The translations under genes and the position numbers were made by a program. DNA of 39,153 bases, taken from positions 1 through 39,153 of the forward strand of contig JALEOU010000114.1 of the NCBI GenBank assembly GCA_022766945.1, given 5' to 3'. Below are positions 24,067 through 27,886 of the stretch, one piece after another (position 1 is the first letter of the stretch; each line of letters opens with the position of its first letter). This DNA is from Fusicatenibacter sp. GTDB taxonomy: Bacteria; Bacillota; Clostridia; Lachnospirales; Lachnospiraceae. The notes under the pieces are model-generated. The model worked only from the letters and a program-made list of their open reading frames with translations, did not search any database and was not told the origin of the DNA.

Positions 24067-25323
24067 TTAATCTGCGGCAGTATCATCGGGAGGTAATTTC
24101 TGAATGCGCACTTTCTCAATCCGGCGGTCTGCCATTTTCAGTACGGTTACTTCCAGGTGATCACAGCTGAAATGATCCCCTTCTTTCGGTACTTTTTCCA
24201 GTGCACCCATCACCCAGCCGCTGACAGTGAAGACATCAAATTCCTTGTCAATCTCCAGTTCCTCATAGACTTTGTCGATGCTGGCTGTTCCGGTGACGAT
24301 GTATTCTTCATCGGAAATCTTCTGAATCTCCTCCACGACAGAATCGTGTTCATCCCAGATTTCACCTACCAGTTCTTCCAGAATGTCTTCCATCGTAATA
24401 ATGCCATCGGTTCCGCCGAACTCATCAATAATAATTGCGATGTGTGATTTTTTCGCCTGCAGCATCTTCAGAAGTGGTCCGATTTTAGTGTTTTCCGTGA
24501 CAAAAAGAGCGGGACGGATAATGCTGCTTAAAGGCTTATTGGTATGGAATACGTGATTGTGGAAATCCTTTTGATAGACAATTCCGACAATGTGGTCAAT
24601 ATCTTCGTCGTACACCGGCAGACGGGAATAGCCGGTATCGGAAAACGTCTGAGCGATTTCCGCCTTGGTAGCGTCCAGCGAAATTCCAACTACATCGATA
24701 CGCGGTGTAAAAATCTCTGCCGCCTCCATTTCCATAAATCCGATAGCGTTCTGAATCAGATCACCTTCCTGATCATCGATACCGCCCTCCTGAGTCGCCT
24801 CCTCCACAATCGTCATCAGCTCTTCATCGGTGATGCCGTGATCATCGGAGGAAGTGATGATTTTGGACAAAAGCTTTTTCCAGAGAGAAAAGAGATAATT
24901 GAACGGAGTTAAAACCACCTGAAAGCAGCGAAGCAGCGGAGCGGTAAGCATCGCAACGGTTTCCGGGGATTCCTTTGCAATACTTTTCGGGGAAACCTCA
25001 CCGAAAATCAGAACTACTATGGTAGTAACCAGGGTAGAAACGCTGGCTCCGGATTCATTGCCAAGCAGTTTGATAAACATGACGGTTGTCAGAGAGGTGA
25101 GCCCGATATTCACAATATTATTTCCGATCAGAATCGTAGAGAGCAGATTATCAAAATTCTCAGACAGCTTCAATACAAGAACGGCTTTTGTATTGCCCTT
25201 TTCCGCCATGTTTTTGATCCGCACTTTGTTGAGCGCAGAGAATGCTGTCTCTGTGGCGGAAAAGTAAGCAGACAGCATTATACAGATTACAATCAGTATC
25301 AATGACACAGTGTCACTATTCAT
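24067..25323 (-). CDS. CNNM/CorC-family membrane protein with CBS pair (putative Mg2+/Na+ transport)
   Basis: 418 residues. The order is a CNNM (DUF21) membrane domain (about 5-150, with SAYFSATETAFSALN and FGEVSPKSIAKE), a CBS pair (about 205-325, with FTPRID and IDEFGGTDGIITMEDILEELVGEI), and a C-terminal CorC_HlyC domain (about 345-412). Such proteins are linked to magnesium export or resistance in bacteria; older names call them hemolysins. ATG 25323 is chosen for AGGAAG about 8 bases upstream. The frame is open to 25392, but that ATG sits in the loop of the leader terminator and would add an unlikely 23-residue tail. Expression appears controlled by the long leader described separately. 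Confidence 0.9.
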   Translation of the reverse strand: MNSDTVSLILIVICIMLSAYFSATETAFSALNKVRIKNMAEKGNTKAVLVLKLSENFDNLLSTILIGNNIVNIGLTSLTTVMFIKLLGNESGASVSTLVTTIVVLIFGEVSPKSIAKESPETVAMLTAPLLRCFQVVLTPFNYLFSLWKKLLSKIITSSDDHGITDEELMTIVEEATQEGGIDDQEGDLIQNAIGFMEMEAAEIFTPRIDVVGISLDATKAEIAQTFSDTGYSRLPVYDEDIDHIVGIVYQKDFHNHVFHTNKPLSSIIRPALFVTENTKIGPLLKMLQAKKSHIAIIIDEFGGTDGIITMEDILEELVGEIWDEHDSVVEEIQKISDEEYIVTGTASIDKVYEELEIDKEFDVFTVSGWVMGALEKVPKEGDHFSCDHLEVTVLKMADRRIEKVRIQKLPPDDTAAD

Positions 25324-25550
25324 AGAGTTCTTCCTTTCTTTGCGGATACAGACCCAAAACAGCACAAAAAGACATAACCTGCTCTCTACCATTGAAAGCA
25401 GATTATGCCTGAGATTTCCTTTCTATCAAAGCATCGTCGAGGCCCGGCGCCTGAATCGTCCATGTCTTAAGTAAATCCTTTCTGAAACAAGCCTTTCAGT
25501 ACAAAAGGTAATGACAAACTTATGTCCTTCGAGGCAATAAAATAATCTCC
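25324..25550 (-). promoter_or_regulatory. Structured 5' leader of the CorC-type gene, riboswitch-like, class unknown
   Basis: About 220 nt from the predicted start near 25547 to the ATG. On the minus strand the 5' end carries GAGATT (25541-25546). It can pair with AATCTC (25410-25415), enclosing some 125 nt of internal hairpins, including one with stem CTGAAA/TTTCAG closed by CCTTT/AAAGG (about 25473-25506). A strong intrinsic terminator follows directly. A closing stem followed by a terminator is the layout of a transcriptional riboswitch. I do not recognise the M-box, yybP-ykoY, cobalamin, ydaO or NiCo consensus in it. Confidence 0.6.
25366..25408 (-). terminator. Leader intrinsic terminator (attenuator) upstream of the CorC-type gene
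   Basis: Minus strand: GCATAATCTGCTTTC (25394-25408), a 7-base loop, GAGAGCAGGTTATGT (25372-25386), then CTTTTTG. All 15 positions pair if G-U is allowed. It lies between the promoter at 25554-25582 and the start codon at 25323, so it would stop transcription before the gene unless an alternative fold forms. Confidence 0.82.
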
Positions 25551-25553
25551 TGT

Positions 25554-25582
25554 ATTATATGGCAGATCTATCCAAATGTCAA
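25554..25582 (-). promoter_or_regulatory. Consensus sigma-A promoter for the CorC-type gene
   Basis: Minus strand: TTGACA (25577-25582), exactly 17 bases, TATAAT (25554-25559). Both hexamers are perfect. It fires into a roughly 220-nt leader, which suggests that control is exerted after initiation. Confidence 0.9.
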
Positions 25583-25653
25583 GAAAAAATTCGTTCCAGC
25601 GCTTGACAGCATTGAAATCTGGTGTAAATCATAGCAGAAAGTGGTAGTAAAAA

Positions 25654-26197
25654 GTGGAGAAAACACCGTCAAATGGATATGTTCGGGCCTTACACGATTG
25701 GAAATGGGGCGGAAATGACTATCGCATAACGGATGTGGACCAAAATGGCATTGTTTCTCTGAAATGGGTTGGCGACAATAACAGGGGATGCGGCATGCTA
25801 CGGGAGCAAATGATCGTGGAGAATATTCCGGAGGAACTTGACGCGCCGGGAGAATGGTATTATGAACGTAGGGAAGGCAGTGTTTGCAGAGAATGCAGAG
25901 AAACTGATAATCTGCGGCTGCAAATTTGAAGAAACCGGTTCCAATGCTGTGATGCTGAACCGATACAATAAAGGCCATGTGATCTGCCATAATGAAATGC
26001 ATCGGATTGGGGCGAGTGGTATTCTGATCGCCGGAAGCGAAGATGCTGTTCGTGATCCCTCCCATTGGGACCGAAACGATCATAAAACGGAGATTCATGA
26101 CTGGATGCAGGGACCTAAAAGTGAGAATTATTCGCGTGACTGCGTAATCAGTAAGAATCATATTTACGATATAGGAATGTACGAGAAGCAGGTCTGA
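25654..26197 (+). pseudogene. Degraded right-handed beta-helix carbohydrate-active protein (GH141-like)
   Basis: Two fragments in different frames. The first (25654 to about 25870) reads through GYVRALHDWKWGGNDYRI and VENIPEELDAPGEWYYERREG. The second (about 25862-26197) reads KAVFAENAEKLIICGCKF, TGSNAVMLNRYNKGHVI, GILIAGSEDAVRDPSHWDR and ISKNHIYDIGMYEKQ. Both resemble successive parts of large bacterial parallel beta-helix proteins of the kind seen in GH141 and related pectin or xylan enzymes. The part between them is mostly missing, the frame shifts at the junction, there is no ribosome site, and the end is lost. The gene is therefore dead: a large internal deletion plus truncation. The family assignment is by eye; the decay is clear from sequence. 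Confidence 0.7.
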
Positions 26198-26399: not shown

Positions 26400-27797
26400 T
26401 TATTTTAGGAAGTAATTCACCGCATTGTTAAAGCTGATGTTTTCGATCATGCCCTTCAGGTAATCCATGTGAGCGGGATATTCACCGTTTTCTACCCAGT
26501 TACCAACGATATTGCAGAGAATTCTTCTGAAATATTCATGGCGAGGGAAGGACAGGAAACTTCTGGAGTCTGTCAGCATGCCAACGAAAGTAGACAGAAG
26601 TCCCATGCTGGAGAGCGTGATCATCTGCTCTTCCATACCAGGTTTGTGATCATTGAACCACCATGCAGTACCGAACTGTACTTTTGCTTTTACGCCCTCT
26701 GCCTGGAAGTTTCCGGCCATAGATGCCAGCATTGGATTGTCATTGGGGTTCAGAGAGTAGAGAACCGTCTTTGGAAGATGATCGTCCAGATCCATTGCAT
26801 TCAGAAGGGCACTGAGCATCGGAGCATAAGCAAAATCATTCATACTGTCAAATCCGGTGTCAACTCCAAGGGCCAGGAATCTTCTGGTGGAATTGTTGCG
26901 GAGTGCCTTGATGTGAATCTGCATTGCAATGTTGCGCTCGCTGTACAGACGTCCAAGTCCGACAAGGAGATATCCTTTGTACATACCAAGATCCTGTTCG
27001 GTTAATGCACCGCCATCCAGACGTTTGGCAAACACAGCATTTGCTTCTTCGGAAGTTGCCGGAACATAGAAGCACCCCTCAATACTGTGATCGCTTACAA
27101 CACAGCCTGCAGCGATAAAGTAGTCCAGACGCTTTGCAAGTGCATCCAGCATGTCATCGGCAGAAGTGATGTCCATATCTGCAGCTTCGGCGAGCTTCTG
27201 AACATAATCGGTAAAGTCGTCTTTTTCCAGATTGATGGCTTTGTCCGGGCGGAAGGAAGGCATAACACGGCAGGCGAAATTTTCTTCCTTCAGAGCGATA
27301 TGGCAGTGAAGATCATCTACCGGATCATCGGTTGTACACATGTAGGAAACATTCTGACCAAGGATCAGGTTGCGGACAGAAAATTCTTTTGTCTGCAGTT
27401 TGGCATTTGCCTCATCCCAAATCTCTTTTGCGGTAGCTTCGCAAAGCGGAGTGGTAATACCGAAGTATCTCTGAAGTTCCAGATGAGTCCAGTGATAAAG
27501 CGGATTTCCGATGGAATTTTCGATGGTTTTTGCAAAAGCGAGATATTTCTCATAGTCATCACCTTTGCCTGTGATCAGTTCCTCAGAAAATCCCATGGCA
27601 CGCATAGCACGCCATTTATAGTGGTCACCGCCCAGCCAGACCTGGGTCAGATTTTCCATCTGGACATCATCCAGAATTTGCTGTGGATTTAAGTGGTTGT
27701 GATAATCAAAAATCGGGGTATGTTCTGCAGCTTCGTGGTACAGCGTTTTTGCGGTATCGGTCTGCAGCAAAAAATCAGCATCCATAAAACTTTTCAT
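26400..27797 (-). CDS. uxaC: Glucuronate isomerase (UxaC)
   Basis: 465 residues, matching E. coli UxaC (470). It is an amidohydrolase-fold isomerase with the metal motif FDYHNHL (His33, His35) and blocks such as WLGGDHYKWRAMRAMG and SDHSIEG. It converts D-glucuronate to D-fructuronate, and galacturonate to tagaturonate. ATG 27797 has GGAGGA about 9 bases upstream; the frame runs 16 codons further with no ribosome site. It is the third gene of the minus-strand uronate operon, following uxuB by 122 bases. Confidence 0.95.
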   Translation of the reverse strand: MKSFMDADFLLQTDTAKTLYHEAAEHTPIFDYHNHLNPQQILDDVQMENLTQVWLGGDHYKWRAMRAMGFSEELITGKGDDYEKYLAFAKTIENSIGNPLYHWTHLELQRYFGITTPLCEATAKEIWDEANAKLQTKEFSVRNLILGQNVSYMCTTDDPVDDLHCHIALKEENFACRVMPSFRPDKAINLEKDDFTDYVQKLAEAADMDITSADDMLDALAKRLDYFIAAGCVVSDHSIEGCFYVPATSEEANAVFAKRLDGGALTEQDLGMYKGYLLVGLGRLYSERNIAMQIHIKALRNNSTRRFLALGVDTGFDSMNDFAYAPMLSALLNAMDLDDHLPKTVLYSLNPNDNPMLASMAGNFQAEGVKAKVQFGTAWWFNDHKPGMEEQMITLSSMGLLSTFVGMLTDSRSFLSFPRHEYFRRILCNIVGNWVENGEYPAHMDYLKGMIENISFNNAVNYFLK

Positions 27798-27828
27798 GGG
27801 TTTGTTTCCTCCATATCTTATGCTGGAA

Positions 27829-27886
27829 AACCGAAAAAGCGACACAGCCCGCTTGAAAGTAGAGCAGACGCGCCGCTTTTTTGGTT
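27829..27886. terminator. Terminator-like hairpin between uxuB and uxaC
   Basis: AACCGAAAAAGCG (27829-27841) pairs with CGCTTTTTTGGTT (27874-27886) with one mismatch, around a 32-base loop. On the minus strand the 3' arm supplies CGCTTTTTCGG. It may partly terminate transcripts after uxuB and set a lower level of uxaC. Confidence 0.5.

Follow-up and report, generated by a model that had tools for sequence, protein, structure and literature searches.

An acidic leader reading frame joined to an intrinsic terminator precedes CNNM/CorC-type genes in Clostridia: a candidate ribosome-mediated attenuator

The leader of a CNNM/CorC-type gene (corC) of Fusicatenibacter sp. contains a short upstream open reading frame (uORF) that runs into an intrinsic terminator. 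From the comparison with related leaders, we consider it probable that this leader is a ribosome-mediated transcription attenuator with an acidic leader peptide, by which the exporters would be made at ample Mg2+. The window, i.e., the whole stretch of 39,153 nt analyzed here (contig JALEOU010000114.1), had received an initial annotation in which this uORF (25463-25386, minus strand) was missed. The architecture, its conservation, its enrichment before corC and its reuse before ion-transport genes are read at the level of sequence. From these we infer translation of the uORF, masking of the hairpin by the ribosome, destabilization of the ribosome by its nascent chain (IRD), Mg2+ as the signal and the direction of the switch.

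The corC leader of Fusicatenibacter

The corC gene (P0001) lies on the minus strand at 24067-25323, with its start at 25323, and encodes a protein of 418 amino acids. The CNNM (DUF21), CBS pair and CorC_HlyC domains were all found above the Pfam cut-offs (175.2, 55.2 and 66.2 bits, respectively). The nearest named relative is the corC of F. saccharivorans (81%), and that of a MAG, L059, is 96% identical. The promoter of the sigma-70 type (25582-25554, minus strand) matches the consensus at 12 of 12 positions. It consists of a −35 box TTGACA at 25577-25582 and, after a spacer of 17 nt, a −10 box TATAAT at 25554-25559, both identified by a promoter scan and by reading the bases. In total, promoter-like sites are barely more frequent than by chance between 24000 and 27000 (8 versus 5.8 ± 3.1 in shuffles), and this is the only 12/12 site among the promoter matches listed for that region. 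Transcription generally starts about 7 nt past the TATAAT box; the start in the window is predicted by this rule rather than mapped. The leader measures about 220–224 nt from promoter to gene.

An intrinsic terminator was identified by a hairpin scan at 25370-25410 (minus strand), with 17 pairs if G-T is allowed and a 7-nt loop, and a U tract follows at 25366-25370 (hairpin scan and bases read). This hairpin is present in the minimum-energy fold of the leader, which as a whole folds slightly better than shuffled sequences (z −1.63; 13 of 200 shuffles as good). The presumed ribosome-binding site of corC, AAAGGAAG, was read at 25330-25337 on the same strand. The consensus promoter, the leader of about 220 nt before a CNNM/CorC gene and the terminator with its U tract had all been described in the initial annotation, which counted 15 bp in the hairpin, and these elements are confirmed here.

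About 800 bp separate the promoter from a gene that matches UxaC (uxaC; 26400-27845, minus strand). A frame between the two (25838-26197, plus strand) reaches 24.3 bits with a right-handed beta-helix model, the cut-off of which is 25.9, and is probably the remnant of a gene. The preceding gene in F. saccharivorans (L005) stops only a few tens of nt short of the corC promoter.

The predicted leader-peptide ORF of the window comprises 25 codons (25386-25463, minus strand; ATG GAC GAT TCA GGC ... TGG TAG) encoding MDDSGAGPRRCFDRKEISGIICFQW, and has the same position as the acidic uORFs of relatives. It covers the 5′ arm and the loop of the terminator, with its TAG (25388-25386) in the loop. A presumed ribosome-binding site, AGAAAGGA, was read at 25476-25483, 12 nt ahead of the ATG. 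The distance from AAAGGA to the uORF start is often 12–13 nt, both in the window (25483-25464) and in several relatives; this is longer than usual and may result in weak initiation. The acidic stretch begins with Asp-Asp in codons 2–3 (25455-25460) and is longer in most relatives. With just two acidic residues in codons 2–10, the window peptide is among the least acidic of the set and, judging from this composition, could represent a weak or altered form.

The uORF is 86% identical to that of its sibling L059, compared to 68% over 117 nt for the 5′ UTR, and its distal frame is shifted between the two. The comparison with the uORF of F. saccharivorans gave no coding signal (S 2.7/10.2, N 13.3/34.8). 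Because a codon-level signal is absent there, we argue for translation of the uORF in this genus from its position and the shared MDDSG start.

Conservation of the reading frame and room for an aptamer

In many of the leaders of 80 corC relatives we found a short ORF at the same position, mostly with a strongly acidic start. Such starts are MDDADSDEE, MDDADSDAE, MADIDADANPYCCI, MENADSDADPYP, MSEDAEGDAE and MADIDADANPY; in Oscillospiraceae-type genomes the uORF begins with MDEPPLP or MDEPPPS, and Ruminococcus-type loci have a uORF with SDDA..PY(H/R)S. Using one script throughout, we called a uORF acidic if at least three Asp or Glu occurred in codons 2–10 behind a Shine-Dalgarno-like site. The acidic or Pro-rich N-terminus of the IRD type, so defined and weak in the window with its two acidic residues, was found before 35 of the 78 usable corC genes; among the 122 other genes that these loci contain, the count was 7 (Fisher p 7.6e-11; loci not all independent). 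Two of these seven are copies of the same arrangement of uORF and terminator (in the following called cassette) before uppP in two Hungatella records. In the remaining 43 corC leaders no uORF of this definition was found, and 37 of the 78 were picked up by none of the three uORF criteria applied; some of these 37 are cassettes by eye (L005, L024, L055). Dependence among the loci concerns L007 and L008, which are identical in the leader, L006 and L017, and the Hungatella copies.

In a separate sample, 15 of 150 genomes of the family have a close corC orthologue (16 matches), and a uORF was found by script or by eye in 11 of these 16. L159 and L160 are not judgeable, L158 and L161 have none, and L153 has the terminator only. 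The L153 version, with promoter and terminator and without a uORF, is perhaps constitutive or differently controlled.

The uORF frame stays open to at most 9 nt from the hairpin in 44 of the 50 testable cassettes (59 in total), where base shuffles predict 23.6; none of 200,000 simulations reached this count. In 47 of 49 non-MDEPP cassettes, the stop codon falls within the hairpin, past it, or no more than 7 nt short of it, the exceptions being L006 and L017; this tally includes L037, in which the hairpin picked lies within the gene. In gap-free comparisons of 12 uORF pairs, pS exceeds pN in 10, with a strong excess in three (L028/L162: S 9.0/21.7, N 9.0/83.3; L043/L044: S 7.0/19.5, N 3.0/64.5; L029/L071: S 11.7/16.0, N 9.3/50.0). 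The uORFs of L006 and L017 are identical, with flanks of 82–85% identity. We preferred these pairwise comparisons to a pN/pS of 0.37, which was set aside as biased because the uORFs concerned had been selected by peptide. As far as such comparisons tell, there is codon-level selection on the uORF in several relatives. A short ORF under selection thus lies ahead of a premature terminator, the arrangement of a leader-peptide attenuator.

The coding signal in some relatives would also be expected if the uORF encoded a functional acidic microprotein and the terminator merely set basal expression. The uORFs range from 11 to 60 codons across the cassettes, however, their distal part is not conserved and the frame overlaps the hairpin, which makes this reading scarcely credible.

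The initial annotation had seen in the leader the layout of a transcriptional riboswitch, perhaps of an undescribed class. That it matches no known class was borne out: Rfam 15 yielded no match at gathering score in the window and none in 19 related loci, and a relaxed threshold yielded two matches in 25200-25700, far below the gathering scores and at chance level. The predicted 5′ UTR of the window before the uORF (25464-25548, minus strand) exceeds that of most relatives in length and shows no aptamer-like conservation. With predicted starts, it measures 83 nt in the window, 81 in L059 and 30 in F. saccharivorans L005, and the median is 34 nt in 37 of the 59 cassettes. The promoters of these 37, called as the best match without a shuffle control, have an exact TTGACA in 17 and an exact TATAAT in 21 cases. 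A median of only 34 nt ahead of the shared element leaves little room for an aptamer, and in the 37 cassettes with predicted starts no conserved aptamer structure was found ahead of the expression platform.

The long-range stem proposed in the initial annotation was borne out in part only. Both of its words, GAGATT (25544-25549) and AATCTC (25411-25416, within the uORF), were read on the minus strand, but the two nearest relatives do not retain their pairing. In L059, AATCTC is changed to AAGTTC, with one mismatch and one wobble against the unchanged GAGATT, and F. saccharivorans L005 has neither word. The first one or two bases of GAGATT would be untranscribed if transcription starts about 7 nt past TATAAT. 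On visual inspection, AGATTAT (25548-25542) complements ATAATCT in the terminator arm (25406-25400), and both words occur in L059. This pairing, which starts no further downstream than the predicted transcription start, could supply an additional, genus-specific layer. Complementarity between the 5′ UTR and the terminator arm is at chance level in the 37 cassettes (mean p 0.69); 35 of them have the terminator in their predicted fold. Given the short 5′ UTR and the lack of lead-to-arm pairing beyond chance, no sensor other than the ribosome is evident.

A new metal-sensing riboswitch, the RNA of which would bind an ion and select the terminator or an alternative fold, would agree with a terminator preceding a CNNM gene, with 5′ UTRs long enough for structure in the window's genus and with the AGATTAT/ATAATCT complement. 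Set against the missing Rfam match, a GAGATT/AATCTC stem that L059 and L005 do not retain, the short median lead with its chance-level pairing, and a reading frame as the conserved element, this explanation keeps only a slim chance. The leader of the window is, on these comparisons, probably not a riboswitch. Of the regulation first proposed, an attenuated leader is well supported and a metal-sensing RNA as its sensor is not, but cation sensing is still likely.

An Asp-rich uORF ahead of a terminator might also indicate an attenuator of the trp/his type that responds to aspartate starvation. Yet no antiterminator was found in the 37 cassettes, in which the stretch before the uORF was compared with the arm; the targets, ion transporters and UppP, have no relation to Asp; and the MDEPPLP versions are poor in Asp. 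Neither pathway-matched control codons nor an exclusive antiterminator were seen, and we regard aspartate starvation as a very improbable signal.

Cassettes before other genes

We searched 299 genomes of the family for the pattern MDDADxD and obtained 25 sites, compared to 5 for the reversed control. A ribosome site and a short frame accompany nine of the 25, of which five lie before corC, two before uppP and two before a P-type ATPase gene; the latter four all come from a pair of related genomes that includes at least one Hungatella. Exact matches to the terminator 3′ arm RGYTATGYCTTTTTG were not enriched (28 versus 54 for the reversed pattern). All 17 hairpin-bearing matches among them have a uORF (12 by script, 5 by eye), and the 11 without a good hairpin have none; not all species involved are independent.

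We also ran a covariance model (R1) of 29 terminators, which has no uORF part, over the 299 genomes. It matched at E ≤ 0.1 in 77 genomes, and the better 50 hits were examined. The match in the window (25363-25410) is to a hairpin that belonged to the training set. Outside of this set, 13 of the 20 examined hits with at least 34 bits have an acidic uORF reaching the hairpin; of the 14 among these 20 that lie at previously unmet sites, 7 do. The respective number for random positions is 14 of 1000. Below 34 bits, 1 of 20 new hits has an acidic uORF, and most resemble chance terminators. In the window's own genome, R1 detects the corC copy only.

In the alignment of the 29 terminators (A1; window 25410-25370), the letters of the stem base are kept before unlike genes (AGGCATARCC...GGYTATGYCTTTTTG) to a greater extent than termination requires, and the A-U and U-A pairs at columns 6–7 are nearly invariant. 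Both sides have changed in 7 of 11 terminator pairs, but this covariation was not counted as an argument because the alignment rows had been picked as hairpins.

A CNNM paralogue (FASAEIAVIS..), closest to the PaeA model and below its cut-off, follows the cassette in seven genomes and in one further case truncated by the end of its contig. In six genomes the gene behind the cassette encodes a P-type ATPase, two of them cut at a contig end and named by the N-terminus only; for the two proteins scanned, the best models are PMR1-type Ca, below the equivalog cut-offs. UppP and TrkH were found behind the cassette in two genomes each, and one of the uORFs before TrkH (L194), identified by eye, stops 14 nt upstream of the hairpin. 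Targets seen in a single case each are an ABC ATPase, a GNAT-membrane protein and, behind a weakly acidic uORF, an AI-2E-family transporter.

Outside the Asp-rich group, the strict MDEPP pattern had no match in 291 genomes of a class-wide sample. A GGTGA..MDEPP/MDQPP start occurs once each, always before corC, in 9 of 10 Oscillospiraceae-type genomes, which were reached through corC loci and chosen for having MDEPP or being likely to. Farther out in the phylum, 29 corC relatives were examined, of which L214 (MDDPVPRLC...) alone looks similar, and the leader DNA has no match in 4 of 7 genomes of the genus.

Several loci deserve separate mention. In Hungatella hathewayi (G052, contig C1, 6829804-6840358), a stretch of about 11 kb holds three cassettes with separate acidic uORFs, which precede uppP, corC (facing away from uppP) and a P-type ATPase gene. 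Two genes for AI-2E-family transporters, assigned by a match to AI-2E_transport in L193 and by resemblance in L170, have R1-type terminators; the uORF of L193 is weakly acidic (MNHAGSDAG...), and none was found at L170. L208 (G255) has a leader peptide, MKDNADSDAAPYHS, and a terminator with no gene close behind, which suggests an orphan cassette or a small RNA. We rejected L184, before a gene that we take to be DUF368-like, as its frame is a tRNA-Leu, and also the acidic frames in L218, L219, L222 and L231, which resemble the end of the upstream, presumably ybeY-like gene.

TrkH imports K+ and UppP is no transporter, and thus the regulon is not purely one of Mg2+ export. That the cassette also precedes other ion-transport genes suggests the ribosome itself as the cation sensor. 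A ribosome-dependent attenuator with an input other than Mg2+, such as polyamines, K+, Ca2+ on a DxDxD nascent chain, EttA-like factors or translation capacity, would agree with the mixed targets (PMR1-like P-type ATPase, TrkH, UppP, CNNM paralogue) and with the excess of Asp over Glu (0.40 versus 0.05 of codons 2–10 in 57 peptides chosen for acidity). It would also agree with the action of EttA on acidic nascent chains in E. coli, as reported in passages of PMC11282234. The MDEPPLP peptides before corC suit IRD better than DxDxD ion binding, however, and we consider a signal other than Mg2+ unlikely, if still worth weighing. More tentatively than the attenuator itself, and at somewhat less than even confidence, we propose that a portable leader-peptide cassette, made of an Asp-rich or Asp-Glu-Pro uORF next to an intrinsic terminator, uses the stability of translating ribosomes as a gauge of intracellular Mg2+ or total cations and turns on a cation-stress regulon in gut Clostridia at high cation levels, the inverse of MgtL. 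This regulon would include CNNM/CorC exporters, the P-type ATPase, UppP and, occasionally, TrkH and others.

Proposed mechanism and relation to known leader peptides

In the Mg2+-dependent attenuator that we propose, RNA polymerase would transcribe the short ORF and, immediately afterwards, the intrinsic terminator. With no ribosome near the hairpin, the terminator would form and corC would be off. A ribosome reaching the uORF stop at or inside the hairpin would block pairing of the 5′ arm, leading to read-through into corC; with the stop no more than 7 nt short of the hairpin, within it or past it, a finishing or passing ribosome would touch or cover this arm. In Bacillota, transcription may outrun the ribosomes, which would weaken such coupling. 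The Asp/Glu or Asp-Glu-Pro start would destabilize ribosomes at low Mg2+ (IRD, similar to MgtL). Because the acidic codons lie 40–110 nt upstream of the hairpin, a ribosome lost there would leave the terminator free. Ribosomes would be lost before the hairpin at low Mg2+, with the genes off, and would reach it at ample Mg2+, with the genes on, which would suit an Mg2+ exporter.

Passages of PMC11282234 describe the EPDP motif of MgtL and ribosome drop-off at low Mg2+ in E. coli and Salmonella, and state that di-acidic residues alone are insufficient for destabilization. Excerpts of two further papers report that Salmonella corC and mgpA are induced by high Mg2+ (PMC12421838) and that MpfA/CNNM proteins mediate Mg2+ efflux and protect against Mg2+ in Bacillota (PMC12815764). 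If drop-off or stalling at low Mg2+ instead caused read-through, the genes would be on at low Mg2+. This is the direction of MgtL and MgtQ according to passages of PMC11282234 and PMC8092293, and TrkH is an uptake system. But a search of 37 leaders turned up no antiterminator able to form once ribosomes have dropped off, the default fold of 35 of these leaders contains the terminator, and the link of CNNM proteins to efflux and the high-Mg2+ induction in Salmonella (PMC12815764 and PMC12421838, in the parts cited) point the other way. We judge this opposite sign quite unlikely.

The known systems resemble the cassette in part. MgtL, the leader peptide of mgtA in E. coli and Salmonella, is likewise a short uORF in an Mg2+-transport leader with early acidic and Pro residues (EPDP), and is thought to control transcription elongation via ribosome drop-off (passages of PMC11282234). 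In contrast to the cassette, it works via Rho-dependent termination and regulates an importer, which is on at low Mg2+. In the cassette, the uORF stop adjoins or is overlapped by an intrinsic terminator; the cassette occurs in Clostridia before exporter-type genes and is probably on at high Mg2+. The two are likened by architecture and not by sequence homology. MgtQ, before Salmonella mgtB, is a very short uORF whose translation is reduced by Asp2 and Glu5, residues through which an Mg2+ transporter is controlled; this uORF differs in acting on mgtB translation, in being intergenic and in being on at low Mg2+ (excerpts of PMC8092293).

YoaL, as presented in passages of PMC12421838, is a uORF before the CorC-domain Mg2+ protection gene yoaE/mgpA with the same sign as proposed here. 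A stop replacing its start lowers MgpA translation, and no terminator is described in those passages. E. coli YoaL differs from the cassette in overlapping yoaE and in being non-acidic (MDRHRRHFSIRPFNAC...). The N-terminal IRD of CorC (YbeX) shares the acid-induced destabilization and is proposed to raise CorC at high Mg2+ (excerpts of PMC12421838, citing Chadani 2021), but it lies within the coding sequence and not in a leader. The histidine leader peptide of hisS/hisZ in Bacillota is a short ORF before a premature terminator, as in the cassette; it differs in that an amino acid is sensed through its codons and in its targets (passages of PMC2965389). The words corC, hemolysin, CBS and magnesium do not occur in the text of PMC2965389, and a literature search, judged by titles, the beginnings of abstracts and some passages, returned no description of the cassette.

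Leader-peptide attenuators and IRD sensors are already known as such. The literature searched did not describe an IRD-like uORF joined to an intrinsic terminator, with targets of the exporter type and reuse across several ion genes in Clostridia. For leaders with a promoter and a terminator and no Rfam match, a uORF should be looked for before the label riboswitch is assigned. If the proposed mechanism is true, these leaders would form a natural set for probing the sequence rules of the sensor, and they would explain the switching-on of CNNM-family Mg2+ exporters in gut Clostridia. Destabilization of the ribosome by acidic nascent chains would then also be a regulatory sensor in these abundant bacteria, with an output opposite to that of the enterobacterial Mg2+ genes described so far in the excerpts cited, and with several targets.
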